From Hydnum rufescens UP504 (Eukaryota; Basidiomycota; Agaricomycetes; Cantharellales; Hydnaceae), in assembly GCA_014904985.1 (NCBI GenBank), contig MU129171.1, positions 1 to 64,000 of the forward strand: a stretch of 64,000 nucleotides of DNA, read 5' to 3'. This document shows positions 15,051 through 64,000 of the stretch, one piece after another (position 1 is the stretch's first letter; the number at the start of each line of letters is the position of its first letter). The notes beneath the pieces are model-generated. The model was given only the letters and a program-made list of their open reading frames with translations, was not told the origin of the DNA and did no database searches. The position numbers were made by a program, and so were the translations under genes.

Positions 15051-18000
15051 AGTTGAGCAAGTGAGTACCGACGCTTTGATTGATAATATGTGTGCCACTA
15101 ATATATGCGTCGTCCAATTAGAGATTTGGAGCATATTGCCTCCAGTGTCCAGTTAAAATCTTCCGCAGGCGGTGTACGTCGCTTCTTGGAACGAAAGAAA
15201 GATGAACACGATCTAGCTACTTTTTCCCAAAACGTCAAGGCGGCTCTCGACCGTTTTCAGGTCTGTTTGTCCACAATATTTGTGCCCCTCCATCCTCCTG
15301 ACTGGCGTGGACGATCCAGCTTAGTCAAACACTCCGTCAAGAGCAAGAATTGTTTCTCGAAAGTAAGATTCCTTCCACTCCTCACTGTTCGTTCGCTAAG
15401 ACCAGCTTCCACAGAACGATCTGCGGCCGTCATGTCTCTCCCTCGTGCTAATTCTGCGGCCTACGATTCCGGCCGCGAGGATGCCCCCTCGTCATGCCTC
15501 AAAGGCACTCGTGTTTCAATCCTGACAGAGATCATGTCATGGTTCGAGAACATGGAGAGCAGCACGCCGCCTGTGTACTGGCTCGTTGGACTGGCCGGAA
15601 TCGGCAAGTCGACGATTGCGAAAACGGTGGCCGAACGAGCCGAGGAGAATGGCATGTTAGGGGCGAGTTTCTTCTTTTCCCGAAGCGACGCGCCTTTGCG
15701 CGATCCAAACCTCGTCTTCCCGACGCTTGCATTCCAACTCGCACAATCGGATAACGAGTTCAAAAATGTCATCGGGGAGGCGATTCAACAGGACGCGACG
15801 TTGGGCCATAAGAAGCCACTGGCCCAATTTGAGGGATTGATCTTGAAGCCCCTTGGTCAACTCGACTCAACCCGACAGATGACACTTATCGTGCTTGACG
15901 CACTCGACGAGTGCAAAGAACAGGGGGCTGCCACAATTTTACAACTACTACTGTCTCACGCCTCACGACTGCCCTTCCTTCGTATCTTAATTACCAGTCG
16001 TCCGGAGCCACACATCTCGTCGGTCTTCACTGAGGCCAAAAACCTCGCAAAGAGAGTTCTTCACGATATTGAAGCCTCTGTGATCGGAGGAAGACCTCCG
16101 GCTTTACATACGGTCTGAATTGGGGGGGCATTTCAAAGAATCTCGAGCTTGGCAGCATTCTGGTTTGGACGGAGGGAGAAATTGAATCTCTGGTTGAGAA
16201 ATCAGGGAAATTGTTCATTTATGCAGCCACATCCATCCGATTCATTGGTGACGCTCGTGTTCGAGATCCTCGTGGTCATCTACAGCTTATACTGGGATGG
16301 CACAGCTCAGCAAGGAATCGGAGGCAACACCCTACTCGCAGCTGGACAGCTTATACGTTGGAGTCCTTCGGAACTCACTCTCGGACTCTAACAGGAAAGC
16401 AATTGTGAAGCGGTTTCAAACGGTGGTGGGCAGTATCGTGTTGCTTCGGCAACCTCTCCCTCTCGGCTCGTTGGCACAATTTGTGCAGTGTACACTGGAC
16501 GACGTTCACACCGCTCTCCGTCACCTTCGTTCTGTGATCATCCCTCCATCCATTCCGGAAGAGGCCCCTCGTATTTATCACCCCTCATTTCGCGACTTCA
16601 TTACTGATCCTTCACGATGCTCTATCCCCGACTTTGTCATTGTTGCTGTACCAGATCAAGAGCTACGGCATGCGTTGCGATGCCTCGAGCTTATGGCAAC
16701 CTTCTTGAGGCAGGACGTCGCAGGGATCTCAGATGTGTCGCTTTTGAACAGCGAGGTGAAGGGATTGGAGGAGAAAGTGAGAGATGCACTATCTGCAGAG
16801 GTGCAGTACGCATGCAGGTATTGGGGATCACATCTGTCGTGTGTGGAATTGGGGGGAGAAGCGAATGGTGGGGGCGTTGAAAGGATTTTCGATGCGGCTA
16901 ATTTTGATGTGGATCGAAGCAATGAGCCTGATTGGGAGTCTCACTAGTGCTGTGGCCCTGATAGAAGAGGCGCACCGATGGGCGGTAAGTGTATTCACTA
17001 TTGGCCGTCGGATCAGCAATTGATTGAAGAGTGATTCTGATGACAGAAGAAATCGCAGTGCGAGGCAATGGTGATTGCTTTGTTGGCCGATGCACGGCGA
17101 TTCCTTCTCGCTCACCGTGAACTGATACGGGGGAGTGCGCTGCAGGTGTATCATTCTGCCTTGGCCTTCACACCATATGACACTGCCTTATACAAGACAT
17201 ATTCAAAAGATGTACAGAGTTGCATCAGAGTGCTGCAGGGTGTGGAGGCACAATGGCCGCAGAGTTTGAGCACATTGGTTGGCCATTCTGGTGTGGTTAA
17301 TTCAGTTGCTTTTTCACCAGATGGTCTATGGCTTGCATCAGGCTCAGATGACTGTACCCTGTGCTTGTGGGATGCTATGTCAGGAGAGCAGATTGCAACT
17401 CTTGAGGCCCATTCTAATTCAGTTGAATCAGTAGCATTTTCACCCAATGGTTCATGGCTTGCATCAGGTTCATGGGATGACACCCTATGCTTGTGGGATG
17501 CCAAGTTGGGCAAATGCATTGTAACCCTTAGAGGTCATTCTAAGGGCATTACTCAGTTGCATTTTCACCTGATGGTTCAAGGCTTGCATCAGGCTCATGG
17601 GATGACACCCTATGCTTGTGGGATGCCATGTCTGGCATTCACATTGCAACTCTTCATGGGCATTTTGGTGTAGTTAGCTCAGTTGCATTTTCACCTGATG
17701 GTGTATGGCTTGCATCAGGCTCATGGGATGCTACCCTATGCTTGTGGGATGCCATATCTGGAAAGGCCATTGGAACTCTTCACAGTCATTCTGATCAGGT
17801 TTTCTCAGTTGCATTTTCACCTGATGGTCTACACCTTGCATCAGGCTCAAAGGATCATACCATATGCTTGTGGGACACTGTATTGGGTGTGCACATTGCA
17901 ACTCTTCAAGGTCATTCTGGTACAGTACGTTCAGTTGCATTTTCACCCAATGGTTCATGGCTTGCATCAGGCTCACATGATGAAACCATATGCTTGTGGG

Positions 18001-19190
18001 ATGCCATGTCAGGCACACACATTGCAACTCTCCATGGCCACTCTCATTCAGTCACCTCAGTCACATTTTCACCAGACAGTTTATGGCTTGCATCTGGCTC
18101 TGTTGATCAGACACTATGCTTGTGGGATCCCATGTTAGGTACACCCATTACCACCCCTCATGGCCATTCCAATTCAGTTCTCTCAGTTGGATTTTCACCT
18201 GATGGTTTATTGCTTGTATCAGGCTCACGTGATAAGACCCTATGCTTGTGGGATGTCATGTCTGGTGCACACATTGCAACTCTTCAGGGCCATCATGGCT
18301 CAGTTACCTCTGTTACATTCTCACCTGATAGTGTACAGCTTGCTTCTGGCTCAAGTGATCATACTGTATGCTTGTGGGATGTTGTGTCTGCCACACACAT
18401 TGGCACCCTTCAGGGCCATTCTGATGAGGTTACCTCAGTTGCATTTTCACCTGATGGTTTACAACTTGGGTCAGGCTCAAGAGATAATACTGTATGCTTG
18501 TGGGATCTCATGTTGGGTGCACACATTGCAACTTCTGGCCATTCCAGTGACCAGGATCTTGACCAGGTTCACTCAGTTGCATTCTCACCTAATGGTTTAC
18601 TGCTTGCATCAGGCTCCTGGGATTCTTCTGTATACTTGTTGGATGCTATGTCAGGTGCACAGATTACAACTCTTCATGGCCATTCTGATGGGGTTACCTT
18701 GGTTGCCTTTTCACCTGATGGTTTATGGCTTGCATCAGGCTCATTTGATCATACTGTATGCTTGTGGGATGCCATGTCAAGGGTGTGCATTGCTACTCTT
18801 GAAGTTGATTATAGGGATGTTTTAGATATTGCATTTTCCCTTGATGGTCATACCCTCATCTCCCAAACTCCTACAAATACCTTTGCATGGGATTTGACAT
18901 CCCAACCCCCTCAATTAGTCTCCTCCTCAATTCTGGAGGCCTTGCCTCCCACTATCAGCCTCAGTTCTCTCATGTGGTCTAGGGTGGGTGGGTGGATCCA
19001 GGCACTGGACTCACAGGGCCATCCTGTTGCCCATGTATGCTATATCCCTCCCCATTATCGCCCAAAGACTGCACTTCAGGCATCAAGTCTGCTCAGTCAA
19101 CCCAGAGTTGCAGTTGGATGTGGGGATGGTCATGTCATAATTGTGGATCCTCAAGATCATCCATTTGTACAGAGGCTTGAACATGTATAA
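15051..19190 (+). pseudogene. NWD2: NACHT-WD40 NLR-like gene, 5' end missing and frameshifted
   Basis: Homology to NWD4 resumes at the last bases of exon 2, followed by the GTGAGT intron 2 (about 15061-15119). The NACHT part is the best preserved after NWD4: P-loop GLAGIGKSTIAKT near 15590-15620, Walker B LIVLDALDEC near 15890, and ITSRPEPHI near 16000. No CGA-to-TGA stops were seen. Instead there are G insertions near 16085, 16120, 16295 and 16850 and a one-base deletion near 17550 in WD repeat 3. These may be true mutations or residual sequencing errors next to the artefact tract. The WD part encodes 13 repeats and the conserved tail (PTISLSSLMW, HVCYIPPHY, VGCGDGHVIIVDPQDHPF) and ends at 19190. 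If the indels are errors and the missing exons exist, this could be a functional gene. Confidence 0.82.
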
Positions 19191-24541: not shown

Positions 24542-27500
24542 TATCCAGTTACATAATACACTGATTCCTATTGAAAAAAAGCCTAAATGCGGAAATTAAA
24601 TGAACTACATCCAAGAAAATTTTCCCCATCCAGCTTAATGGGGGCCCAGGACCAGGGGGTGGTGCCTGGGATGGATGGATGGACCCCTAGGGACCCTGAT
24701 ACAGTAAAAAAACCAGGCCCAGGGCCACTGGTTAGTGCCTGAAACAATGAGAACAGTAAAAACAGCACCGGAACCACCGGAAATTGCCGGAAATTAAGCG
24801 CTGGGCAGATGAGTCTGAAATTTGGCACATGATTAGAGACTATTAGGACTCAAATCATATCAAAATTTCAGCCAAATCCATGCATTACTTATAGAGATAT
24901 GAGCCAAACAAGTTTGGACATTAAAATTTGATTTTCTCCCCCCATAAAATAGCTAGAGACTTGAAGATTTACACAGAGTATGACATCATTATGAAGTAAT
25001 CATGTGCCAAAAATCAGCCCAATCCATGCACTTAAAGAGGGGGAACTGGGCAGGGGGACCGGAACCACCGGAAGATGCCGAAACTTAAGCGCTGGGAGGA
25101 CGAGTCTGAAGTTTGGCACATGGTTAGAGACTATTAGGACGCAAATCATATCGAAATTTCAGCCAAATCCATGCATTACTTATGGAGATATGAGCCAAAC
25201 ATGTTTGGACATTAAAAATTGATTTCCTCCCCCTATAAAATAGCTGGGGACTTGAAAATTTACACAGAGTATAAATCATTATAAAGTAATTATGTGCAAA
25301 AAATCAGCCCAATCCATGCACTTAAAGAGGGGGAACTGGGCAGGGGGACCGGAACCACCGGAAGATGCCGGAAAATAACCGCTGGGCGGACGTGTCTGAA
25401 ATTCGGCACATATTAGGAGGCCATTGGTACGCAAATCATATCAAAATTTCAGCCAAATCCATGCATTACTTATGGAGATATCAGCCAAACAAGTTTGAAC
25501 ATTGAGAATTGATTTACTCCCCCTACAGTCAAGATATGAACTTGAAATTTTACACAGAGTATATTCATATAATGGACTAAATCTATGCCAAAAATCAGCC
25601 CAATCAGTGGAGTTTGAGACATTCAACTCCCTTGGCAGGCAGAAAAGAGGAACAACCCCACCATAAATGTGAATCACCCCACACTGGGCCCAAAATAGGT
25701 GGAATTGACCTGTAATATTATGATACAGACTATATCCAAAAATGGAATGAATTGGATGTGTGGAAGTGGCTGAAATTGAGGGGGAGGGGAAGGATAATCA
25801 AAAGTGAATTACACAAGATGTAGAGCAGGCATGGATCTGATATTAGGCCACTAGTGTAATACAGATATGGGGAGCTCATATGCCAAATATCAGCCTAACC
25901 AGACTCCATTTAGGCATTGCTCCACATCATCCCCCCTTAACTCACAATTTCCTCCCCAGGGCCTTCCATCCATGCCATTACCCTGAAAACTCACAGTTGG
26001 CTCATCCAAACACATTCATAACATCCCTCAAAATTTCAGATTTCTTACTGCAATGTGAGATCTTGCAGAATATTTTCAAGTTTCACTGTAATACACCCTC
26101 CAGTGGGGACACTTCCAGTGCTCCAATGACTCTGATTTTTGTAGGCCACACCTGGTCACCATTTGAGGCCCAGGTGCAAAATTTCAGGGCATTCTAAGCA
26201 CTTCTGGAATTGGTCACATGACCCAGATCTTCCCCTCCCCCTGCTTTACTCAGTGATCCAATTTGCATGAACTTTGTGGCCATTTGTAGTAGTAGTAGGT
26301 GGCACCCCATGATTCCAATTTGAAGACATTCCATGGAATATTCATTGAGTTATTCAAGAAACATTCCAGATCAATTCAATTTGAGGTCAGAACCACAGTA
26401 TTTCCAGTAAATACCGTCATTCTGACCTCAAATTGAATTGATCTGGAATGTTTCTTGAATAACTCAATGAATATTCCATGGAATGTCTTCAAATTGGAAT
26501 CATGGGGTGCCACCTACTACTACTACAAATGGCCACAAGTTCATGCAAATTGGATCACTGAGTAAAGCAGGGGGAGGGAAGATCTGGGTCATGTGACAAT
26601 TCCAGAAGTGCTTAGAATGCCCTGAAATTTTGCACTGGGCCTCAAATGGTGACCAGGTTGGCCTACCAAAAAATCAGAGTCATTGGAGCACTGGAAGTGT
26701 CCCCACTGGAGGGTGTATTACAGTGAAACTTGAAAATATTCTGCAAGACTCACATTGCAGTAGAATCGAAATTTTGAGGGTTGTTTATGAATGTGTTTGG
26801 ATGAGCCAACCTGTGATTTTAGGGTAATGGCATGGATGGAAGGCCCTGGGGAGGAATTGTGAGTTAAGGGGGATGATGTGGAGCAATGCCTAAATGGAGT
26901 CGGTTAGGCCTGATATTTGCATAATGGAGCTCCCCATATCTGTATTACACTAGTGGCCTAATATCAGATCCATGCCTGCTCTACATCTTGTGTAATTCAC
27001 TTTTGATTATCCTTCCCCTCCCCTCATTTCAGCCACTTCCCAACATCCATTCATTCCATTTTGGATATAGTCTGTAATCATAATATTACAGGTCAATTCC
27101 ACCTATTTTGGGCCAGTGTGGGGTGATTCACATTTATGGTGGGGTTGTTTCCTCTTTTCTCCTGCCAAGGGAGTTGAATGTCTCAAACTCCACTGATTGG
27201 GCTGATTTTTGGCAATAGATTTAGTCCATTATATGAATATACTCTGTGTAAAATTTCAAGTTCATATCTTGACTGTAGGGGGAGTAAATCAATTCTCAAT
27301 GTTCAAACTTGTTTGGCCTGATATCTCCATAAGTAATGCATGGATTTGGCTGAAATTTTGTATGATTGCGTACCAATGGCCTCCTAATATGTGCGAATTT
27401 CAGACACGTCCGCCCAGCGGTTATTTTCCGGCATCTTCCGGTGGTTCCGGTCCCCCCTGCCCAGTTCCCCCCTCTTTAAGTGCATGGATTGGGGCTGATT

Positions 27501-36129: not shown

Positions 36130-37438
36130 GCCATGGATCAAGGCAGCAGCAGACGAATCGGAGCTCCTAGTGGCCCAGAGATTCTACAAGTCCAATGAGG
36201 GACTCCTGATCTTCCAAGATGCAGACTGGGTAGCACGATTATGTGTGCCAAAGTCAGAGGTACACAGGATACTCCAGGAATCCCATGAGTCACCTTGGGA
36301 AACAGCCCATGCTGGATCCTCGAGGTTATTCCATAAGCTGGCCACGCAATTTTATTGGCCAAAAATGTGGGCCAATGTTGTCAAATATACTAAAACATGC
36401 AATGTCTGCCAGAAGACCAAATCAGACAAGTGAGGGCCGATGGGAAAGCTTCTCCCTCATGCAATTCCACTACTCCCATTTGAGGTAGTGACCCTGGATC
36501 TTATCACGGGCCTCCTGAAGTCGGAGGGGCACAATGCAGTACTAGTGATAGTGGACAAACTTACTAAGTTTGTCCAATATGTTCCCACTACCTCAAGCCT
36601 TAAGCAGGAGGGTTTCACCAAGATGTTCATCCAGCATGTCGTCTGGAAGTATGGCCTTCCAAGGCAAATGATCACCAATCAGGACACCAGGTGGTCTCAA
36701 TCCTTTTGGGCATCGGTCGCCAAACATCTCAATTTAGATTTACTCCTCTTGACTTCCCATCACCTGCAGACAGACAGACAGACAGAGAAAGCCAATGATA
36801 CATTGGAAGTCACATTATGTGCATACATGGTGGGGAATTGCAGTTCCTGGGCCCAGCAGCTTGGAACACTCGTGATGGCCCACAACTCCACACCCCATAC
36901 CTCCACCGGTTATTCACCTTTCTTCCTTTTACATGGATACTCCCCTAGGACTAAAGCGACAGCCATGGACCCAGTAAGAAGAGGCATTAAGTGGGTTGAG
37001 CTCGACAATGCATCTGCTTCCTTGTTCATGGGTGAACTGGAGGCCCATTGTTCTTTAGCCAGGGACATGCTAGTGAGAGCCCAAGCCAGACAGGTGAAAG
37101 CCTATAACACAAGGAGACGTGATGAAGAATTCGAAGAAGGAGATGAGGTTCTAGTGGATCCCCATTCTCTGGAATTAGTGGACATGCAAGGCACAGGGAA
37201 GAAGCTAGTACAACAGTGCATAGGACCTTTCCAGATCTTGGAGAAGATTAACCCAGTAGTCTACCATGTAAATATACCACCTGAGTACAAGATGCATCCC
37301 ATCATAAATATACAGCATCTAACCAAATACCATCAGGATGAATGGGACAAAGGACAATCCAAGCTCCTGGAATTGAGAGAGCTAACCAAGGAGGAAGAAT
37401 ACGAGGTTGAGAGGATAGTAGGACATTGCTACAATTGA
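36130..37438 (+). pseudogene. Pol of element B: integrase
   Basis: The N-terminal zinc-binding HHCC pattern is H...H in VHRILQESHESPWETAHAG and CNVCQK (36259-36411). The catalytic core (long open frame 36440-37438, 332 codons) has D in VTLDLITGLL, D in ITNQDTRW and E in QTDRQTEKAND, the D,D-35-E arrangement. The C-terminal part contains the GPFQILEKINPVVYHVNIP pattern typical of gypsy integrase ends. A TGA near 36431 separates the zinc finger from the core. Integrase inserts element DNA, with chromatin targeting by the chromodomain that follows. Confidence 0.85.
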
Positions 37439-46330: not shown

Positions 46331-49300
46331 ATGAAGTGGTCCCTCAACCCGGGGAAGACTGCCAAAGGTCTCTCCTTAGCCATCCTCCAGCCCCTCCACC
46401 ACCTCCTTGACGCAATTCCAATCCTGGGTGCCAAGGCCAGCATTGGCATTCTCCTCGATGTCGTCGAAGGCATTGACGTTAGTATCATACTCCCCTTGTT
46501 TTCAAACTGTCAGTCCTCATCGCTCTCTGTGTCCTTCCAGAAAATTTCCCGGAACTCCTCAACATTACTAGAACTAGAAAACCATATTCGATTCCTAACC
46601 AATCTCCTGGAGCCCCTGACAAAAATGGATCGGAGCAATATCTCATCTGGCCTGAAGGATGATGTGCGGAAGTTGAGCAAGTGAGTACCAATGCTTTGAT
46701 TGATAATATGTGTGCCACTGATACATGCCTCATCCAAATTAGAGATTTGGAGCATATTGCCTCCAGTGTCCAGTCAAAATCTTCCGCAGGCGGTGTACGT
46801 CGCTTCTTGGAATGAAAGAAAGATGAACACAATCTACCTACTTTTTCCCAAAACCTCAAGGCAGCTCTCGACCGTTTTCATGTGTGTTTGTCCACAATAT
46901 TTGTGCCCTCCATCCTCCTGACTGGCATGGATGATCTAGGTTAGCCAAACACTCCGTCAAGAGCAAGAATTGCTTCTCAAAAGTAAGATTCCCTCCACTC
47001 CCTACTGTTCATTTGCTGAGATGGGCTTTCACAGAACGATCTGCGGCCGTCATGTCTCTCCCTCATGCTAATTCTGCGGCCTACAATTCCGGCTGTGAGG
47101 ATGCCCCCTCGTCATGCTTCGAAGGCACTCGTGTTTCAATACTGACAGAGATCATGTCATGGTTGGAGAGCGTGGAAAGTGGCATGCCACCTGTGTACTG
47201 GCTCATTGGACTGGCCGGAATCAGCAAGTCAACAATTGCGAAAACGGCAGCCGAATGAGCAGACAAGAATGGGATGCTAGGGGGGAGTTCCTTCTTTTCC
47301 CGGAGCGATGCGCCTTTGTGCAATGCAAACCTTGTCTTCCTGATGCTTGCATTCCAACTTGCACTGTCGGATACCGAGTTCAAAAATGTCATTGGGGAGG
47401 CGATACAACAAGACCCGATGTTGGGTCACAAGAACACATTCTCCCAATTCAAAGGATTGATCTTGAAGCCCCTTGGTTGACTCAGCATAAGCCAACAGAC
47501 GAGACTTATCATGCTTGATGCACTCGACGAGTGTGAAGAACAGGGCACTGACACAATCTTACAACTACTACTTTCTCACGCTTCACAATTACCCTTCCTC
47601 CGTGTCTTAATTACCAGTCGCCTGGAGCCACACATCTCGTCGGTCTTCACTGAGGCCAGGAACCTTGCCAAGAGAGTTCTTCACAACATTGAAGCGTCTG
47701 TCATTGAGGAAGACCTCCGGCTTTACATTCGGTCTGAACTGGGGAAGATTTTAAAGAGGCTCAAGCTTGGCAGCATTCCAGATTGGACGGATGGGGAAAT
47801 CAATTCACTGGTTGAGAAATCAGGGAAATTGTTCATTTATGCAGCGACATCGATCCGATTCATTGGCGACGCTCGTGTTCAAGATCCTCGTGGCCATCTA
47901 TGCCTTATACTGGATACACAGCTCACCAAGGAATCAGAAGTAACAGCTTACTCACAGCTGGACAGCTTGCACATTGGAGTCCTTCAGAACTCGCTCTCAG
48001 ATTTCAACCATAAAGCGATCATGAAACGGTTTCAAATGGTGGTGGGCAGTATTGTGTTGCTTTGGCAACCTCTCCCTCTCGGCTTGTGGGCACAGTTTGT
48101 GCAGTGTACACTCGATGACGTTGACACCACTCTCTGTCACCTTCGTTCCGTGATCATCCCTCCTTTGGCTCTGGACGAGGCCCCTTGTATTTATCACCCC
48201 TCATTTTGTGACTTCATTATGGATCCTTCACGATGCTCTATCCCCAACTTTGTCATTGTGGCTGTACCAGATCAAGAGCTACGGCACGTGTTGCAATGCC
48301 TCAAGCTTATGGAAACCTTCTTGAGGCAGGACATCGCAGGGATCTTGGATGTGTCGCTTTTGAACAGCAAGGTGAAGGGATCGGAGGAGAAAGTGAGGGA
48401 TGCACTATCTGTGGAGGTGCAGTACACGTGCAGGTATTGGGCGTTGCATCTGTCGTGTGTGGAATTGGGGGAGAAGCGAGTGGTGGAGGCGCTGGAGGGA
48501 TTTTCGAAGTGGTTACTTTTGATGTGGATCGAAGCAATGAGCTTGATTGGCAGTCTCTCTAGTGCCATAGTCTCGATAGAAGGAGCGCACCAGTGGGCAG
48601 TAAGTGTCTTCACTATTGGGTGTCGGATCAGCAATTGATTGGAGAGTGCTTTCGATGACAGATGAATTCGAAGTGCGAGGTGATTGTGATCACTCTATTG
48701 GACAATGCACGGCAGTTCATTCTCGCTCACTGTGAACTGATACAGGAGAGTGCACTGCAGGTGTATCATTCTGCTTTGGCATTCACACCATATGACACTG
48801 CACTATACAAAACATATTCAAAAGATGTTAAGAGTTGTATCAGAGTGCTGCAGGGTGCAGATGCACAATGGCCACAGAACTTGAGCACATTGATTAGCCA
48901 TTCTGGTGCAATTAACTCAGTTGCATTTTTACCAGATGGTCTATGGCTTGCATCAGGCTCAGATGACTGTACCCTACAACTGTGGGATGCCATATCAGGA
49001 CAACACATTGCAACCCTTCAGGGCCATTCTGGTACTGTTGAATCTGTAGCATTTTCACACAATGGTTTATGGCTTGCATCAGGTTCATGGAATCACATCC
49101 TGCACTTGTGGGATGTGATGTTGGGCACATGCATTGTCACTCTTCAAGGCCATTCTGGGGCTGTTTCCTCAGTTGCATTTTCACCTGATGGTCAAAGGCT
49201 TGCATCAGCCTCACATGATCACACCCTATGCTTGTGGGATCCTATGTTGGGGATGCACATTGCAACTCTTCAAGGCCATTCTGAGTCAGTTTCCTCAGTT

Positions 49301-50806
49301 GCATTTTCACCTGATGGTTTGCAACTTGTGTCAGGCTCTGATGATCATACCCTATGCTTGTGGGATGCCATATCAGGTGCCCATGCTGCAACTCTTACCA
49401 GTCATTCTAAGGATGTGACCTCAGTTGCATTTTCATCTGATGGTCTTCACCTTGCATCAGGCTCACATGATGAAACTGTATGTTTGCGGGATGCTGTATT
49501 GGGTGTGTGCATTGCAACTCTTCAGGGCCATTCTGGTTTTGTTGTGTCAGTTGCATTTTCACCCAATGGTTCATGGCTTGCATCAGGCTCATGGGATGAG
49601 ACTATATGTGTGTGGGATGCCATGTCAGGCACACACATTGCAACTCTCCATGGCCTCTCTGATGCAGTCAACTCAGTCACATTTTCACCTGACAGTTTAT
49701 GGCTTGCATCTGGCACCCAGGATGGTGCCCTATGCTTATGGAATTCTATGTCAGGCACACCCATTCCTGCCCCCTATGCCCATTCCAATTCAATTAGCTC
49801 ACTTGCACTGTCACCTGATGGTTTGTTGCTTGCATCAGGCTCACATGATCATACTCTACACTTGTGGGATGTCATCTCTGGTGCACACATTGCAACTCTT
49901 GAAGGCCATTCTGGTCAGGTTACCTCAGTTGCATTCTCACCTGATGGTGTACAGCTTGCATCTGGCTCATATGATAATGCTGTATGCTTGTGGGATGCCA
50001 AGTCAGCCAGGCACATTACAACTCTTCTAGGCCACCATCATGAAGTTACCTCAGTTGCATTCTCACCTGATGGCTTGCGGCTTGCATCAGGCTCAACAGA
50101 TAGGAATTTATGCTTGTGGGATCCCATATTGGGTGCACACATTGCAACTTCTTACTGTTCTAATCTGGTTAAATCAGTTGCATTCTCACCCAATGGTTTA
50201 CAGCTTGCATCAGGCTCATATGGTAAGACTGTATACTTGTTGGATGCTATGTCAGGTGCACATATTGCAACTCTTCATGGCCATTCTGATTGGGTTACCT
50301 TGGTTGCCTTTTCACCTGATGGTTTATGGCTTGTATCTGGCTCATTTGATCACACTGTGTGCATATGGGATGCCATATCCAGGGTGTGTATTGCCACTCT
50401 TAATGTTGATTCTTGGAATATTCTAGATTTGGCATTTTCCTTTGATGGTCATACCCTCATCTCCCAGACTTCTACAAACACCTTTGCATGGGATTTGACA
50501 TCTCAACCCCCTCAATTAGTCTCTTCCTCAATTCTGGAGGCCTTGCCTCCTACTATCAGCCTCAGTTCTCTCATGTGGTGTATGGTGGGCAGGTGGATCC
50601 AGGCACTGGACTCAGAGGGCCATCCTGTGGCCCATATATGCTATATCCCTCCCCATTATTCCCCATGGACTGGTGTTCAGGCATCAAGTCCACTCAATCA
50701 ACCCAGAGTTGCAGTTGGATGTGGGGATGGTCATGTTATAATTGTGGATCTTCAAGATCATCCATTTGTACAGAGGCTTCAACATGCAGAAACTCCTTAT
50801 AGATAG
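46331..50806 (+). pseudogene. NWD3: NACHT-WD40 NLR-like gene, WD part fully open
   Basis: Start ATG 46331. Exon 1 is 46331-46477, intron 46478-46540, exon 2 46541-46680, intron 46681-46742. Two further short introns fall before about 47040, and a 74-nt intron lies at 48600-48673. Three stops, 46813-46815, 47256-47258 and 47478-47480, are TGA where NWD4 has CGA. The P-loop is GLAGISKST, with Ser for a key Gly, so ATP binding would be lost even without the stops. The NACHT second half is open from 47511. The WD part is open from 48674 to the stop at 50806, with 13 repeats of 42 residues of the pattern GHSxxVxSVAFSPDGLxLAS and the tail VGCGDGHVIIVDLQDHPF. The open WD part could still be transcribed from an internal start, but nothing shows this. 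Confidence 0.88.
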
Positions 50807-55445: not shown

Positions 55446-58400
55446 ATGAAGTGGTCCCTCAACCCGGGGAAGACCGCCAAAGGTCTCTCCTTAGCCATTC
55501 TCCAGCCTCTCCACCTCCTCCTCGACGCAATCCCAATCCCGGGTGCCAAGGACGGCATTGGCATTCTCCTCGATGTCGTCGAAGGCATTGACGTTAGTAT
55601 CATACTCCCCTCGTTTTGAAACCATCCGTCCTCATTGCTCTCTGTGTCCTTCCAGAAAACTTCCCGGAACTCCTCAACGCTACTAGAACTAGAAAATCAT
55701 CTTCGATCCCTAACCGATCTTCTGGAGCCCCTGACGAAAATGGACCAGAACAATATCCCATCTGGCCTCAAGGACGATGTGCGGAAGTTGAGCAAGTGAG
55801 TACCGACGCTTTGATTGATAATATGTGTGCCACTAATATATGCGTCGTCCAATTAGAGGTTTGGAGCATATTGCCTCCAGTGTCCAGTTAAAATCTTCCG
55901 CAGGCGGTGTACGTCGCTTCTTGGAACGAAAGAAAGATGAACACGATCTACCTACTTTTTCCCAAAACGTCAAGGCGGCTCTCGACCGTTTTCAGGTCTG
56001 TTTGTCCACAATATTTGTGCCCCTCCATCCTCCTGACTGGCGTGAACGATCCAGCTTAGCCAAACGCTCCGTCAAGAGCAAGAATTGTTTCTCGAAAGTA
56101 AGATCCCCTCCACTCCCCACTGTTCGTTCGCTAAGACCAGCTTCCACAGAACGATCTGTGGCCGTCATGTCTCTCCCTCGCGCTAATTCTGCGGCCTACG
56201 ATTCCGGCCGTGAGGATGCCCCCTCGTCATGCCTGGAAGGCACTCGTGTTTCAATCCTGACAGAGATCATGTCATGGTTCGAGAGCATGGAAGGTGGGAC
56301 GCCGCCTATATATTGGCTCGTTGGACTCGCTGGAATCGGCAAGTCGACGATTGCGAAAACGGCGGCCGAACGAGCGAACAAGAATAGGATGCTAGGAGGG
56401 AGTTTCTTCTTTTCCCGGAGCGACGCACCTTTGCGGAATCCGAACCTTGTCTTCCCGACGCTTGCGTTCCAACTCGCACAATCAGATAACGAGTTCAAAA
56501 ACGTCATCGGGGAGGCGATTCAACAAGACGCAACGTTGGGTCACAAGAACACATTCTCCCAATTTGAAGGATTGATCTTGAAGCCCCTGGGCCGATTTGG
56601 CTCAAGCCGACAGACGACACTTATCGTGCTTGACGCACTCGATGAGTGTGAAGAACAGGGCGCTGACACAATCTTACAACTACTACTTTCTCACGCTTCA
56701 AAATTACCCTTCCTCCGCGTCTTAATTACCAGTCGTCCGGAGCCACACATCTCGTCTGTCTTCACTCAGGCCAGGAACCTCGCCAAGAGAGTTCTTCACG
56801 ATATTGAAGCCTCTGTGATCGAAGAAGACCTTCGGCGTTACATTCGGTCCGAATTGAGGAGGATTCGAAAGAAGCTCGAGCTTGACAGCATTCCGGATTG
56901 GACAGAGGGAGAAATCAATTCTCTGGTTGAGAAATCTGGGAAATTGTTCATTTACGCAGCGATATCGATCCGATTCATTGGCGACCCTCGTGTTCGAGAT
57001 CCTCGTGGTCATCTACACCTGATACTGGATGCACAGCTCACCAAGGAATTGGAGGTAACACCTTACTCGCAGCTGGACAGCTTATACGCTGGGGTCCTTC
57101 GGAACTCGCTCTCGGATTCTAACCGTAAAGCGATTGTGAAGCGGTTTCAAACAGTGGTAGGCAGTATCGTGCTGCTTCGGCAACCTCTCCCGCTGGGCTC
57201 GTTGGCGGAGTTTGTCCGGTGCACACCCGATGATATTCATACTGCTCTCCGTCACCTTCGTTCCGTGATCATCCCTCCTTCCGCTCCGGACGAGGCCCCT
57301 CGTATTTATCACCCCTCATTTCGCGACTTCATTATGGATCCTTCGCGATGCTCTATCCCCGACTTTGTAATTGTTGCCGGACCAGATCAAGAGCTACGGC
57401 ACGCGTTGCGATGCCTTGAGCTTATGGCAACCTTCTTGAGGCAGGACGTCGCAGGGATCTCGGATGTGTCGCTTTTGAACAGCGAGGTGAAGGGATTGGA
57501 GGAGAAAGTGAGATATGCACTACCTGCAGAGGTGCAGTACGCGTGCAGGTATTGGGCGTCGCATCTGTCGTGTGTGGAATTGGGGGAGAAGCGAATGGTG
57601 GAGGTGTTGGAAGGATTTTCGAAGCGGTCAATTTTGATGTGGATCGAAGCGATGAGCCTGATTGGGAGTGTTTCTGATGCTGTAGCCCTGATGGAAGAGG
57701 CGCACCGATGGGCAGTAAGTGTATTCACTATTGGCCGTCGGATCAGCAATTGATTGAAGAGTGATTCTGATGACAGACGAAATCGCAGTGCGAGGCAACG
57801 GTGATTGCTTTGTTGGCTGATGCACGGCGATTCCTTCTCATTCACCGTGAACTGATACGGGGGAGTGCACAGCAGGTGTATCATTCTGCCTTGGCCTTCA
57901 CACCATATGACACTGCACTATACAAGACATATTCAAAAGATGTAAAGAGTTGTATCAGAGTGCTGCAGGGTGTAGAGGCACGATGGCCGCAGAGCTTGAG
58001 CACATTGATTGGCCATTCTGATACAGTTAACTCAGTTGCATTTTCCCCTGATGGTCTATGGGTTGCATCGGGCTCAGATGACCATACCCTGTGCTTGTGG
58101 GATGCCAAGTCAGGAGAGTGGATTGCAACTCTTGAGGCCCATTCTGATTCAGTGGAATCAGTTGCATTCTCACCTGATGGTTTACAGCTTGCATCAGGTT
58201 CATGGGATAAGACCATATGCTTGTGGGATGTCATGTTGGGCACATGCACTGTAACTCTTTGAGGCCATTCTAAGAGCATTCATTCAGTTGCATTTTCACC
58301 TGATGGTTTCAGGCTTGTATCAGGCTCAGATGATCATACCCTATGCTTGTGGGATGCCATGTTGGGGATGCACATTGCAACTCTTCAAGGCCATTCTGGT

Positions 58401-59921
58401 TCAGTTTTCTCAGTTGCATTTTCCCCTGATGGTTTGCAGCTTGTGTCAGGCTCATGGGATCATACCCTATTCTTGTGGGATGCAGTGTCAGGCACCCACA
58501 TTGCAACTCTTCACAGTCATTCTGATAAGATTTCCTCAGTTGCATTTTCACCTGATGGTCTACACCTTGCATCAGGCTCACTTGATCATACCATATGCTT
58601 GTGGGATGCTATATTGGGTGTGCACATTGCAACTCTTCAAAGCCATTCTGATTTTGTTAGGTCACTTGCATTTTCACCCAATGGTTTGTGGCTTGCATCA
58701 GGCTCAAGTGATCAGACCATATGCTTGTGGGATGCCATGTCAGGCACACACACTGCAACTCTCCATGGCCACTCTAATGCAGTCACCTCAGTCACATTTT
58801 CACCTGACAGTTTATGGCTTGCATCTGGCTCCTCTGATGATACCCTATGCTTGTGGGATCCCATGTTGAGCACACCCATTACCACCCCTCATGGCCATTC
58901 CAATTCAGTTTTCTCAGTCACATTTTCACCTGATGGTTTATTGATTGCATCAGGCTCACTTGATCATACCTTATGCTTGTGGGATGCCATGTCTGGTGCA
59001 CACATTGCAACTCTTGAAGGCCATTCTGATTGGGTTGTCTCAGTTGCATTCTCACCTGATGGTGTACAGCTTGCATCTGGCTCATGTGATGATACTATAT
59101 GCTTGTGGGATGTCAAGTCAGCCATGCACATTATGACTCTTCAAGGCCATTCTAAGATTGTTACCTCACTTGCATTTTCACCTAATGGTTTATGGCTTGT
59201 GTCAGGCTCCAATGACAATACTGTGTGCTTGTGGGATGCTGTGTTGGGGATCCACATTGCAACTCTTCCTGGCCATTCTGAGCCAATTGTCTCAGTTGCA
59301 TTTTCACCTGATGGTTTGCAACTTGTGTCAGGCTCCCGTGATCATACCCTATGCTTGTGGGATGCTACATCAGGCACACCTGTTGCAACTCTTGAAGGCC
59401 ATTCTGATCAGGTTACCTCAGTTGCATTTTCACCTGATGGTTTATGGCTTGCATCAGGCTCATGTGATTGTACTGTGCACCTGTGGGACACCACATCAAA
59501 GGTGTGCATTGCAACTCTTGAAGTCAATTCCAGGGACATTCAAAATGTTGCATTTTCTTGTGATGGTCATACCCTCATCTCCCAAACCCCTACAAAGATC
59601 TTTGCTTGGGATTTGACATCCCAACCCCCTCAATTACACACTTCCTCACTTCCAGAAGCCTTCCCTCCTACCATGAACCTCAGTTCTCTCATGTGGTATA
59701 GGGTGGATGGGTGGATTCAGACCCTGGACCCACAGGGCCATCCTGTTGCCCATATATGCTATATCCCACCCCATTATTGCCCAAGGACTGCCCCTCAGGC
59801 ATCAAGTTTGTTTGGTCAACCCAGAGTTGCAGTTGGATGTGGGGATGGCCACATTGTAATTGTGGATCCTCAAGATCATCCACTTATACAAAGGCTTGAA
59901 CATGGAGCAACTCCCTCATAG
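55446..59921 (+). pseudogene. NWD4: NACHT-WD40 NLR-like gene with a single in-frame stop
   Basis: Predicted exons are 55446-55592, 55656-55795, 55857-55995, 56055-56097, 56141-57714 and 57789-59921. Introns 1, 2 and 5 have clear GT...AG sites. The pair 55996-56054 and 56098-56140 is supported by an indel in the first of them in NWD3. The N-terminal region is helical (LDAIPIPGAK; LLELENHLRSLTDLLEPL), resembling adaptor bundles in other basidiomycete NLRs. The linker SCLEGTRVSIL leads to NACHT: P-loop GLAGIGKSTIAKT (56323-56361), LIVLDALDECEEQ, ITSRPEPHI. Thirteen WD repeats and the tail follow. The only break is TGA 58260-58262, in repeat 3. Such proteins are ligand-triggered switches. The C-terminal WD domain is the presumed sensor. 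Confidence 0.88.
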
Positions 59922-60429
59922 ATGGGATTTTATTATTTTAAACACCCTCTATGTCTTCTTGTGTCAAGAAACCAATATGTCTCATCATCAAATGTTGAGA
60001 TATTTTCAATATAAATGGATCCAGGAACCTCTGATAGCAAGACCAAATGAAAGAGAACACCAGACCACCTTCTGGATTACCTAGCCTTACCACTTCATTG
60101 TCATGCACATAATCTATTCTGGCACTGCACTCCTAGTGAGTTTGTTTTTCTCAGGGACAATCACTTATGAGGACCAGGCTGGTCAGCCAATTATCAGTAT
60201 CTAATTAGATATACAGCCCATGGGGCCCCTGGTGGCCCCTGTGGGCTAACTTGGATGGGCTCAGGGGGACCCAAGTACTGATCCAGTGGCCCCTCAGAAC
60301 TGCCTCCAAAGGCCTCATTTCAAACCCAAGTATTTTCTAAGTTCAGCTAGGGGCCCCCCACAATTAACTTAATGGTTTTGGTGGTTTCTGTATTATTTTT
60401 GCTAAGTACATATGTAGATAACATGGACT
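59922..60429. other. 3' flank of NWD4
   Basis: 59930-60160 is a diverged copy of the flank after the other NWD genes (AACACCCT, TGTCAAGAAACCAATATG, CTAGCCTTACCACTTCATTG). From about 60165 it changes to unrelated sequence with GGGGCCCCTGGTGGCCCCTG-like runs. No gene. Confidence 0.5.
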
Positions 60430-61235
60430 TAGTCTTCATCACTACTAGTCTCACTTCCCATATCATCAGAATGACCCTCATGAAGGAGGTCTGTAGCTGT
60501 GAGTAGGACTAGGTCAGCAATAACTGGCTGAGGCTCCAGCTCAAATTCTTCATCATCATCTGAGCCATCCACCTGGAGAAGCCCACTGTCCATTTGTCTG
60601 ACCTTGGCAACTTTGGGATTGCTGCTTGTTCAGCTAAGGACCCTGCCAACTTGGACAGGGGTTGGATAGGCACCCTGCAATCAAGCTGAGCCTTGGTCTC
60701 ACTAGTCAAGGCTCTGCCACCTCATTGAGGGAAATCAGTCCAAGAGATGCCATATTGAGGCATGTTGGATTGAGTGACATTGGATTGAGTGACCTCAGAT
60801 TGAGCGACCTTGGACTGAGCAACATTGCGGGCTAATGCATCAATGGAGCATCCCCACCTCTTGCCCAAATCTATAAGCCACTGAGCATGTTTCTGCAAGA
60901 AGAACTGGAGCTCAGCATCCTCTGTAGGTAGACTAAATTAGCACACCCTTCTGCCAGATATCACCCCCTTACCTTTGGAAGCTTGTAAAACAGCAATCAA
61001 CACTGCCAATTCATCATTGAACCAATGCTGCAAAGAGGACCATTCATGTTCACAGAGATATAGCTCATCATGGCAATTCATGATTTCTTGAACAATTTGA
61101 ATCCCATTTCAGACATCCTCATCCCCTAGCCAAGGAGGGACCTGTCCACCAAATTCATCATCTGCAAGTCCAATATCTTGCCAGATATCATTGTCCACAT
61201 CAAGACTAAAAAGACCCTCCATCTCAATGGGAGGA
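60430..61235 (-). pseudogene. Relic resembling the C-terminus of a KDZ-type transposase
   Basis: Minus-strand reading gives VPPWLGDEDV, then (after a TGA) GIQIVQEIMNCHDELYLCEH, LQHWFNDELAVLIAVLQ, AELQFFLQKHAQWLIDLGKRW and an acidic end GSETSSDED. The order P-WL-DE, GI, C-EE-like, LQ-WF--E and a Trp-rich helix is what I know from the tail of KDZ (Kyakuja-Dileera-Zisupton) transposases of agaricomycetes. The catalytic part is absent, cut by the LTR at 61236. Identification rests on pattern only. Confidence 0.35.
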
Positions 61236-61816
61236 TGTCAGGGCCATGCTGCGACAAGGGCACCAAACAAATGTAAACACAAATAATTCTGGCTAAGTCT
61301 GGTGTAAGTCTGGCTAAGTCCGCAAGAATCCGGGCAAGAATGAGATAAGGAGGTTAGGGATGTCAGAGGAGCAGTCCAGCAGCCCGGAAGGGACTAGGTG
61401 GAAATGAGCACAGTGGTCCTTAAGCTTGTGGAGTCGACTGGATAATACTCAGAGCTGTAGTCCGGAGTAACAGCGGAAATCCTGAGATTATGTAATATGA
61501 ATATGGAATACATGAAGGCTGACCTGTAGTCTGGAGTAACAGCGGAAATCCTGAGAGACCAAAGCTGGGGTCTCTGGACTTCACTCTTGGACTACTTATA
61601 CATGATGACTATACTACAGGGGAGTGATCGCTAAACTGTGGGTGGTTACAAGGGGGGACAGGAACAGGAACAGGAACAGGAACTCAGCCAGGGGGCAAAC
61701 CAGAAGCAATGGGAAATGAAAGGGAAATGAAACCAAGATAGGGTTGGATTGGAGTCAAACTGGAATCAAGCTGGAAGCAAAGTGGACTTGGGTGAAGGAA
61801 CTAAGCGGAGAACTGG
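61236..61816 (-). repeat. LTR of family C, truncated
   Basis: Matches 29405-30079 in reverse from TGTCAGGG at 61236 to about 61816, where the last roughly 95 bp are missing. It includes the GGAACA tandem run (61664-61681) and the duplicated block ATCCTGAGA. Confidence 0.85.
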
Positions 61817-62138
61817 CAACTCAGTCAGCCACAAATGTAGGTCTAGTTAGATATTACGAGCCTTGCATTTATATAGTCTAACTAGAGGTTTTGATGCTGG
61901 GGCCCCTGGGGCTGGCTAACCTGATTTCCGTGGTTCAGGCAGGGGCCCCTGGCTCTGAACTTAGAAAATGACCAGGGAGAAGTCATATAGGAGGGGGGTA
62001 TCAGGATAGGTGCTGGAAGGCCTGGGAAGGCCCCTGAATAGGTCAGTGGGCTACACGGGCTTATCGGGGACAATCACAGTTATTATTTTCTCATTGTTTA
62101 TGATGGGGAATCCCATGTTCATTCTTATTGACTTGTTT

Positions 62139-62175
<37 letters not shown>

Positions 62176-62196
62176 AAATTCACAGGAACTACTTAG
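61817..62196. other. Spacer with ATTT microsatellite
   Basis: No gene seen. A (TTTA)n run lies at about 62138-62174. It sits just beyond the last module of the hairpin array and, on minus, gives an AAATAAATAAATAA tract. Confidence 0.7.
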
Positions 62197-62308
62197 TAGC
62201 ACCACACACCCGCCTAGTGGGTGTGTGGTACCTTCCCTTGCCTCCATCGGGGGTTCAGCCAGTTTTCCAAAGGGGGGATGTCGCGGGCAGTATCTATTGT
62301 ATGATAAC
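62197..62308 (-). repeat. Array module 7, terminal exon-like block
   Basis: Begins after the acceptor at 62309 and contains hairpin B at 62201-62229. It has no clear donor (AAGTAGTT instead) and ends in AT-rich repeats. It may be the last exon of a minus-strand transcript. Confidence 0.55.
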
Positions 62309-62602
62309 CTAGATTAAATAAGTAAAAATAAGATTAATATGTTAGTAAAGGAAAAAAATTCGAAGGGAACGCCAAAAAGAGCAGCAGGTGCTGCTCTTTT
62401 GGCATCATGGTACACCTGATAATCAAAAAAACTAACCTAATATTGCCACACACCCGCCGAAGCGGGTGTGTGGTGCCGTATTTGTTTCGTGTTTCGTTGT
62501 TGCAGAAAATCGAGGGTCGGGGTATGGGGGGCGGCGTGGTCCTGTGTTTTGCTTTGGACCTGGTCTGCATTTGTCAAGTCGGATATCAGGCAGTGGAGAT
62601 AC
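62309..62602 (-). repeat. Array module 6
   Basis: Exon 62437-62602 (166 nt), donor G|GTTAGT, intron 62309-62436 (128 nt, longest, with ACTAAC at a greater distance). Hairpin A is 62371-62403. Hairpin B is 62446-62475 with TTCG loop on minus. Confidence 0.75.
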
Positions 62603-62877
62603 CTAGAATAATAGTATGTTAGTAAAGAAAAAAAACAAAGGCAATGCCAAAAGAGCAGTGGGTGCTGCTCTTTTGGTGTTGTCGTACACCCATAAGAAAG
62701 GAAACTCACCTAATATTGCCACACACCTGCTGAAGTGGGTGTGTGGCACTGTATTTGTTTCGTCCTCGTATATGTTGCCTGAAATCGAGGATCGGGTATG
62801 GTGGCTGTGTGGTCCCGTGTTTTGCCCCAGGCTGATCTGCGCATTCGTCGGGTCGGATATCACGCAATAAAAATGTA
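62603..62877 (-). repeat. Array module 5
   Basis: Exon 62710-62877 (168 nt), donor G|GTGAGT, intron 62603-62709 (107 nt) with ACTAAC upstream of the acceptor. Hairpin A is 62641-62681. Hairpin B is 62718-62747 (TTCA loop). The exon shares GATATCCGAC with module 6. Confidence 0.75.
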
Positions 62878-63145
62878 CTAGAATAATGATGTGTTAGTAA
62901 AGAAAAAAAATGAAGGCAACGCCAAAGAGCAGCCAGGGCTACTCTTTTGGCGTTGCGGTACACTGCGTAATAAAAAAAACTCACCTACTAGTTACCACAC
63001 ACCCGCTTCAGCAGGTGTATGGTACGTGATTTCATCGATCGTCGTTTCAGGGGGCAGGCACTGTGGCTTGGGTGGCTGCGCATTGAACGTTGCACTGGGG
63101 GCTCGTCCATGTCCTCGTCGGGTGGGTTTTCAAGTAGGAAGGCAC
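62878..63145 (-). repeat. Array module 4
   Basis: Exon 62985-63145 (161 nt), donor G|GTGAGT, intron 62878-62984 (107 nt). Hairpin A is 62916-62956 with two mismatches. Hairpin B is 62994-63023 with the loop in inverted orientation (TGAA on minus). Confidence 0.72.
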
Positions 63146-63402
63146 CTAGAAGATTGAATAATAATACATTAGTAAAAAAAAGAAAACAGAGGTGCTAAAA
63201 GAGCAGCTTCTGCTGCTCTTTGGCACCGGTGGGATTAGATGATGTACCTAATATTACCACACACCCGCCGAAGTGGGTGTGTGGTACGCGATTTCGTCAA
63301 TCGTTGTTTTGGGTGGCCGCAAGCACTCGGGGCTTGGGTGGCTGCACGTACTGGGGGCTCATCCATGTCCTCGTCGGGTGGGTCTTCGCGGAGGGAAGAG
63401 AC
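63146..63402 (-). repeat. Array module 3
   Basis: Exon 63248-63402 (155 nt), donor G|GTACAT (weakest of the set), intron 63146-63247 (102 nt). Hairpin A is 63191-63227. Hairpin B is 63256-63285, with TTCG loop on minus. One frame of the exon reads PPDEDMDEPPV, shared with module 4. Confidence 0.72.
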
Positions 63403-63653
63403 CTAGAAGAATGAATAATAATACATTAGTAAAAAAAAAGAAAATAGAGGTGCCAAAAGAGCAGCTTCTGCTGCTCTTTTGGCACCGGTGGGATTAGACG
63501 TACCTAATATTACCACACACCCGCCGAAGCGGGTGTGTGGTTCCGTCTGGGGTTTCTGGCATCTGCATTGTGCATCCCTGTTCCCAGGTTTTGTCTGGCG
63601 GGTTGGGGTTTTCGGTTCGCAGTTTGTGCGGTTTGTGGGTGCAGACGGACAAC
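63403..63653 (-). repeat. Array module 2
   Basis: Exon 63504-63653 (150 nt), donor G|GTACGT, intron 63403-63503 (101 nt). Hairpin A, 63449-63486, has perfect 17-bp arms and a 4-nt loop. Hairpin B, 63512-63541, is a perfect 13-bp stem with TTCG loop on minus. Confidence 0.75.
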
Positions 63654-63922
63654 CTACAATAATAAATCATACGTTAGTCGAGAGCCAAAAATAAATAAAA
63701 AAAGAAAAGCCATGCAAAAGGAGCAGCCTAGGCTGCTCCTTTTGCATGATGGTAGGTACTTACCTTGAAAACCAATGCACCCCTTCGGCGGGTGCGTGGT
63801 TCCTGTGGCTCTCATGGTCCTCTGGCGCAGTTTCGGCGGTTATGATTCAGGGGTGGCATGCAGGTTGTTGTTTTGGGGAGGGGGTTCGTTTGGCGGGTGT
63901 TTCTGGTGGTTGAGGCGATGGT
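63654..63922 (-). repeat. Array module 1
   Basis: Exon 63764-63922 (159 nt), donor G|GTAAGT at 63763, intron 63654-63763 (110 nt). Hairpin A, 63711-63748, is a perfect 38-bp palindrome (arm CATGCAAAAGGAGCAGCCT). Hairpin B lies at 63770-63798 with altered stem pairs (TGCACCC/GGGTGCG). Confidence 0.75.
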
Positions 63923-64000
63923 CTAGAATAAGAGTGATATGTAGTAAAAATTAAAACCAGCCCAAAAATAGCAGCATTGGTGCTCTTTGGGTTTAGAGGT
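63923..64000 (-). repeat. Array module 0, partial intron
   Basis: The acceptor AG is at 63923-63924, with a degenerate hairpin A at 63961-63991 (CCCAAA...TTTGGG with AGCA/TGCT). It continues beyond the window. Confidence 0.6.

Follow-up and report, generated by a model that had tools for sequence, protein, structure and literature searches.

The 64,000-nucleotide stretch of Hydnum rufescens UP504 analysed here (hereafter the window; contig MU129171.1, positions 1 to 64,000) ends in a minus-strand tandem array in which predicted exons and introns are repeated together, each with a conserved hairpin. This raises the question of what kind of genetic element multiplies exon and intron as one structured module. 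A preliminary description had considered a non-coding RNA gene, a locus amplified from an introner-like intron and a repeat-protein gene in decay. Our analysis showed that the array is the 3' half of a copy of a dispersed DNA transposon and not a lone locus. Judged from its sequence, this transposon is probably a non-autonomous element with ends of the KDZ (Kyakuja-Dileera-Zisupton) type, which encodes no recognisable protein and would consist of two divergent, non-coding, spliced transcription units. The non-coding RNA proposal is retained in this form as the best reading, but it had missed that the locus is half of a dispersed transposon, that the ends are KDZ-type and that a mirror-image array exists.

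The array is one copy of a dispersed transposon

The genome searched comprises 63.2 Mb in 539 contigs, with the window as part of contig C263. At least 321 matches to the array were found (40 of 1,276 candidates scored), the best of the others extending over 1.8 kb at 95% identity. The array is therefore one copy of a dispersed family. The 20 fetched loci that were compared have sharp common limits. The transposon begins with CAGCCTGGTCAGCCAATTATC and finishes with TTTGTGGCTGACTGAGTTG, giving CA..TG termini, and its ends show an imperfect inverted similarity across roughly 100 bp. In the nine copies with both ends fetched, 8-bp target duplications were perfect in eight and matched at 7 of 8 positions in the ninth. 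Eight of nine complete copies measured 4.6–5.3 kb; the ninth measured 8.6 kb and contains a long run of N. When longer end pairs were screened for an autonomous copy, a single element was obtained, L041, of 8.6 kb and with such a run of N.

Genome-wide, 300 3' ends and 284 5' ends were found at up to 3 mismatches, compared with 4 and 0, respectively, in a reversed control. The exon-hairpin pattern (up to 2 mismatches) occurred at 4,654 sites and units of a donor AGGT plus an intron hairpin at 2,884, with 0 in the control in both cases. On the assumption that every one of the 4,654 exon hairpins marks a module of ~270 bp, the family can be estimated at ~1.3 Mb, some 2% of the genome.

The array itself had been correctly recognised in the window, but the limits given for it, 62197..64000, did not hold. 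It is part of a transposon copy that extends from 61817 past the window edge as far as ~65393 on the contig, with its 5' end missing. Upstream of it, where the contig ends, there is another truncated copy.

On the other side, the 581 bp adjoining the 3' end of this copy (61236-61816) match the locus L022 elsewhere at 94%, and the array copy therefore sits beside or inside another dispersed repeat. Near-identical direct repeats are found at 61452-61487 and 61521-61556.

Complete copies carry two divergent arrays about a central palindrome

The complete copy L023 opens with one end and an AT-rich tract, followed by six modules in antisense orientation, the central palindrome and eight modules in sense orientation; an (AAAT)n tract and the other end close it. 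No open reading frame (ORF) longer than 120 amino acids, stop to stop, is present in this copy. Complete copies thus contain a second, mirror-image array, and both arrays are read outward from the centre. The palindrome spans ~640 bp and is near-perfect, with arm lengths of 312 bp (L023) and 324 bp (L038) and no more than one mismatch. Across 11 centres, the two arms within an element were 96% alike on average (89–99%), while arms of the L038-40 group and of the remaining elements were only 74% alike, so that the two arms evolve in concert. The palindrome contains CCAAT- and TATA-like motifs; in the 22 arms, a conserved CCAATCCACT and TATA-like stretches are oriented outward.

In a first module listing, all modules of L023, L028, L038 and L042 were directed away from the centre. 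A second scoring agreed for L023 (14 of 14) and L038 (11 of 11); it counts against a strictly outward arrangement that the same scoring turned one or more modules in L028 and likewise in L042, with over-long first exons. When the strand order of neighbouring modules within 2.5 kb was counted over 97 listed sites (100 rows, with 3 overlapping duplicates left out), 13 minus-to-plus and 7 plus-to-minus changes were observed, with 46 pairs on the same strand. Of the plus-to-minus changes, some resemble chance hits to complementary acceptor sequence, and others may come from neighbouring elements. The element has the long inverted arms of tandem repeats that are typical of foldback elements, its arms being homologous only at the level of the module.

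At C16:257725-262387, a pair of 5'-type ends is found in facing orientation at a distance of 4.7 kb; the pair may bound an element whose ends are identical.

Spliceosomal signals recur in order across the modules

In the window, the six minus-strand donors named in the preliminary description (63763, 63503, 63247, 62984, 62709 and 62436) are present, as are the seven acceptors (last G of AG at 63923, 63654, 63403, 63146, 62878, 62603 and 62309). The ACTAAC/ACTAAT branch motifs were also borne out, with ACTAC in the intron at the window edge, and each module has the two hairpins described, one ahead of the donor and one within the intron. From 63763 downward, the introns measure 110, 101, 102, 107, 107 and 128 nt; internal exons are 150–168 nt long, and a partial module lies at the window edge. 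Repeats of ~257–274 nt were also detected independently.

A covariance model of exon hairpin plus intron was built on alignment A1, which contains 35 of 36 modules selected from fetched copies. All 35 lie outside the window, three of them in a neighbouring copy on the same contig. The model recovered the six window modules with E values of 6e-18 to 2.5e-26 and also matched the terminal exon hairpin and the cut module at the window edge. Since the model was made from paralogues within the same genome, this match locates the window modules and is no independent proof. Weaker plus-strand matches in the window reflect the palindromic nature of the hairpins.

For 205 of 227 intron hairpins of the fetched copies, the orientation was clear from the splice signals. 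After 18 of the 227 modules had been left out for unclear orientation, weak donors or short flanks, the remaining 209 formed 54 divergent clusters, whose alignment keeps four conserved islands: the exon hairpin (ACCACACACCCGC..GCGGGTGTGTGGT), the donor (AAG|GTRAGT), the intron hairpin (GCGCAAAAAGAGCAGC..GCTGCTCTTTTTGCGC) and the branch point with acceptor (ACTAAC..TTCTAG). Exon bodies and intron linkers hold little information in this alignment.

Because the tallies of the 227-hairpin scoring and of the 54-cluster alignment pick sites by score and are biased by score maximisation, the splice-signal test was redone on units picked by their hairpins alone. Among 145 such units, AGGTRNGT was found in 72 (shuffles: mean 2.0, maximum 5) and CTRAY..YAG in 130 (mean 20.6, maximum 29). 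In a reduced set of 39, the corresponding counts were 23 (mean 0.8, maximum 2) and 33 (mean 4.9, maximum 9). In 100 listed rows of AGGT plus intron hairpin, where AGGT alone was fixed, GTRNGT was present in 72, GTRAGT in 47 and a G at +5 in 85. Donor, branch point and acceptor therefore occur in order above chance, and we infer that the array introns are spliced.

Some observations do not sit easily with this reading, the bias of the earlier tallies being one of them. AGGTRNGT is missing from 73 of the 145 hairpin-chosen units. Furthermore, exon body and hairpin evolve about equally fast in recent copies, and donors are variable in three of eight introns of these copies, the other five being invariant or nearly so. 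We read this as neutral decay of recent copies, with constraint acting on the lineages that keep moving.

The hairpins are conserved, with RNA and DNA explanations competing

The two helices were 91.9% paired in the 35 modules, compared with 85.8% after shuffling and 31–54% when slid. Changes on both sides of a helix numbered 68, against 23.5 (shuffled) and 6–18 (slid), and the covariation score was 0.218 compared with 0.115. The commonest stems are 13–15 bp in the exon and 16–22 bp in the intron, with loops mostly of 4 nt. The exon hairpin most often ends 8 nt ahead of the donor (45 of 161; range 0–14). Exon junction complexes are deposited about 20–27 nt upstream of a junction, and a hairpin that ends ~8 nt before the donor therefore covers this region.

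In L023 (5466, 5748) and L028 (5258, 5542; oriented positions), loops of the same module were found in both orientations, TTCG and CGAA, which suggests small inversions between hairpin arms.

Constraint at the RNA level should favour G.U pairs, while palindrome repair at the DNA level or neutral decay should not. Tested in this way, the data tell against a purely RNA-based reading: no G.U excess was found in the exon stem. Among the mismatches of the 35 modules, G.U and A.C numbered 18 and 25 in the exon helix and 28 and 13, a mild excess, in the intron helix; for the unique hairpins of all copies, the counts were 43 and 44 (exon, n=121) and 95 and 77 (intron, n=142). RNA-level selection on the stems is thus not established by these counts, which leave room for palindrome upkeep at the DNA level. 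RNA folding gave z-scores of -9.2 and -4.6 for two window modules, and the antisense (plus) strand of the first scored -10.1. As the plus strand folds equally well, folding stability is uninformative on the strand.

These results agree with an explanation in which the hairpins are perfected as DNA palindromes by template switching or gene conversion, have no role in RNA and are accompanied by intron-like signals as inherited passengers. The TTCG/CGAA inversions between copies of one module would also fit, as would a centre that is nearly perfect in both families despite their ~26% difference. We nevertheless regard it as unlikely. It does not account for the persisting order of donor, branch point and acceptor in 54 clusters that can no longer be aligned over their exon bodies, nor for the contrast between U-poor exons and U-rich introns. 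In addition, the loops are strand-biased, with UNCG in 31 cases versus its reverse complement CGNA in 8, and GNRA in 29 versus 2, although shared descent could explain this bias.

Amplification of the introner type, with a mobile unit of exon hairpin plus intron inserted repeatedly into a host element, would predict the conserved block that was found, which is exactly exon hairpin plus intron with unrelated exon bodies between. However, these bodies share a length range and a U-poor composition, which makes such an origin improbable. Slightly less credible still is a small-RNA precursor, in which Dicer would cut the many regular stem-loops of exon and intron RNA into regulatory or anti-silencing small RNAs: the stem lengths given above are short for Dicer substrates, and no Rfam family matched the window at gathering thresholds.

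The exons lack a conserved reading frame

Internal exon lengths modulo 3 were distributed 26/16/16 (n=58, with 8 intervals of at least 330 nt left out). The exon bodies consist of 32% A, 37% C, 21% G and 10% T (T 9.6%), compared with 37% T in the introns. In alignments of seven exons, with 5–18 copies each, a stop was present in 13 of 21 frames, and six exons had at least one open frame; as every stop codon needs a U, open frames are expected from such U-poor sequence. Substitutions were uneven by codon phase in three of the seven exons, with a different phase favoured in each and indels in two of those three alignments. The repeat-protein gene, intact or decaying and with one or two exons per repeat, is therefore rejected as highly implausible on frame and substitution evidence, since neither lengths modulo 3 nor any frame or codon phase is kept, and the six exons with an open frame and the low-complexity ATG ORFs of up to 199 amino acids in spliced models do not alter this.

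The 5' end relates the element to KDZ transposons

The 8-bp duplications were initially read as a sign of a hAT element, and a terminal hairpin suggested a Helitron. The latter was dropped on the target duplications and inverted ends, and the former because a variant of the 5' end tracks KDZ and not hAT domains. This variant, CAGGCTGGTCAGCCAATTATC, carries CAGG, one base off the array-type CAGC, and was found at 75 genome sites. A first-look list of KDZ domains held 584 candidates, of which 150 were scored, giving 154 matches; the proximity counts that follow rest on 150 of these. A KDZ domain was located 1.7–3.0 kb inside 16 of the 75 ends, in every case reading towards the end, and outside one of them within 4 kb. 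With a wider 5' motif (212 sites), KDZ lay inside 12 and outside 2 of the 100 sites listed, 4 of the 12 being shared with the previous set. The genome holds at least 90 hAT dimer domains, and these occurred within 4 kb of 3 of the 75 CAGG ends, on scattered sides and with no common orientation.

The array elements and the KDZ-coding elements thus share 20 of 21 nt of 5' terminal sequence. The CA..TG termini and the 8-bp duplications, perfect in eight of nine copies, also suit this group: 8-bp duplications are described for Zisupton, and CA..TG ends for two Laccaria Kyakuja families (PMC12730594). Since L023 has no ORF above 120 amino acids, the array element has no KDZ transposase domain (PF18758) and can be at most a non-autonomous member. 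Because array elements without transposase have one end in common with KDZ elements, mobilisation in trans by a KDZ transposase is most likely.

Several points run counter to this assignment. The terminal sequence is shared at the 5' end only, and the other end of the KDZ-coding elements was not found. Among 100 listed 3' ends, KDZ was within 5 kb of one, outside the element, and hAT within 4 kb of three, with no common orientation. Of 85 listed array-type (CAGC) 5' ends, a single one (in C142) had KDZ inside and three had it outside. Finally, the Laccaria families Kyakuja-1/-2_LB are described with duplications of 7 bp and as lacking inverted ends (PMC12730594).

Proposed mechanism and relation to known systems

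In the favoured reading of a non-autonomous spliced transposon, a KDZ transposase from other elements would recognise the ends and move the array element, leaving the 8-bp duplications; the duplications are observed, and the supply of transposase in trans is suggested by the common end. Mirror-image promoters in the central palindrome, to which the CCAAT and TATA-like motifs point, would drive transcription outward through both arrays to the poly(A)-like tracts that adjoin the two ends. Each unit would be spliced at several introns (3–10 predicted per unit in the copies examined). Folding of the intron hairpin would take out ~42 of 109 nt and may thereby bring donor and branch point to a spacing ordinary for fungi. 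The mature RNA would be a U-poor exon chain with a stable hairpin about -38 to -9 before each junction, at the exon junction complex site. Introns are reported to raise mRNA accumulation cumulatively in the basidiomycete Cryptococcus (PMC3744415). The exon hairpins might conceivably let an untranslated multi-intron RNA escape decay and gain such an expression boost. The gain to the element, which is speculative, would probably be sustained transcription or escape from silencing, keeping both ends open to the transposase. Taken as a whole, the picture of a selfish DNA that encodes no protein and acts through its RNA is a tentative one: the element would borrow a KDZ transposase and stay expressed and mobile through two divergent, hairpin-studded spliced RNAs with exon hairpins at exon junction complex sites.

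Our searches of open-licence papers found no description of such an element. KDZ transposons of Agaricomycetes resemble it in the common 20/21-nt end, the CA..TG termini and the 8-bp duplications reported for Zisupton (PMC12730594); in contrast, the array element has neither transposase nor long ORF, and its body consists of intron arrays. Foldback elements such as FB and Galileo likewise have two inverted arms of tandem repeats about a centre, but the arms of the array element correspond to each other only at the level of single modules, contain spliceosomal signals and flank a separate promoter-like central palindrome. Introners and sister stwintrons also provide many similar spliceosomal introns within one genome, whereas the introns here repeat with their exons inside a transposon. 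Large non-autonomous DNA transposons, such as giant miniature inverted-repeat transposable elements, share the ends without transposase and the high copy number; unlike them, the array element has a conserved, ordered and structured interior that is neither filler nor captured gene fragments.

The usual view of non-autonomous transposons is one of empty ends with filler between them. In the L023 and L038 families, which are ~30% diverged, 11–14 introns are kept in order, together with both classes of hairpin and a symmetric, promoter-like centre. Because these features are kept without a long ORF, they suggest that selection can act on a transposon through the spliced RNA it makes. The family therefore offers natural tests of why introns help transcript accumulation in basidiomycetes and of the interplay between splicing and transposon silencing.

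Feature map and neighbouring features of the window

The features of the array copy and the nearby KDZ-type end are collected in Table 1.

Table 1. Predicted and observed features at the right-hand end of the window.
Feature	Position	Strand	Details	Basis
Separate element's end, KDZ-type	60175..60195	+	CAGGCTGGTCAGCCAATTATC; 1.6 kb from array element	End type common to KDZ-coding elements
Window part of transposon copy (3' half)	61817..64000	-	3' end ...GTGGCTGACTGAGTTG	Similarity to complete copies breaks off precisely at 61817
3' terminal inverted repeat	61817..61835	-	TTTGTGGCTGACTGAGTTG	The 8 bases immediately beyond it are the expected target duplication
(AAAT)n tract past last exon	62125..62174	-	Possible poly(A) signal region	Sequence
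Predicted terminal exon	62190..62308	-	Hairpin ~62199-62231	Sequence, covariance model
Predicted intron 6	62309..62436	-	Donor GTTAGT, branch CTAAC, acceptor TCTAG; hairpin near 62375-62404	Sequence, covariance model
Predicted exon	62437..62602	-	166 nt; exon hairpin 62446-62473	Sequence
Predicted intron 5	62603..62709	-	GTGAGT; hairpin near 62645-62676	Sequence, covariance model
Predicted exon	62710..62877	-	168 nt; exon hairpin 62719-62746	Sequence
Predicted intron 4	62878..62984	-	GTGAGT; hairpin near 62921-62951	Sequence, covariance model
Predicted exon	62985..63145	-	161 nt; exon hairpin 62993-63024	Sequence
Predicted intron 3	63146..63247	-	GTACAT; hairpin near 63191-63224	Sequence, covariance model
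Predicted exon	63248..63402	-	155 nt; exon hairpin 63255-63286	Sequence
Predicted intron 2	63403..63503	-	GTACGT; 17-bp hairpin 63449-63486	Sequence, covariance model, folding
Predicted exon	63504..63653	-	150 nt; exon hairpin 63512-63541, UUCG loop	Sequence, folding
Predicted intron 1 in window	63654..63763	-	GTAAGT; perfect hairpin 63711-63748	Sequence, covariance model
Predicted exon	63764..63922	-	159 nt; degenerate exon hairpin ~63780-63806	Sequence, covariance model
3' part of further intron	63923..64000	-	Decayed hairpin, ACTAC branch, TTCTAG acceptor at 63923; cut by window edge	Sequence, covariance model

The end of the separate element with the KDZ-type end CAGGCTGGTCAGCCAATTATC lies within 60175-61400 on the plus strand. 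Elsewhere in the window, four tandem arrays of 126-bp units, with ~12 units each, are located at 4090-5544, 17296-18779, 48897-50376 and 58011-59468, the third of which is WD40 by Pfam. NPHP3_N / NACHT-type domains lie ahead of the arrays at 2098-2670, 15102-16118 and 55837-57753, with a partial NPHP3_N at 47481-48638, and together the arrays and domains form a local plus-strand cluster of STAND-type genes. A further tandem repeat of 290 bp (2.9 copies, 87% matches) is present at 24767-25605. The ORF at 36434-37438 contains a Tf2-1-like SH3 domain and is probably the remnant of a Ty3-type retrotransposon.

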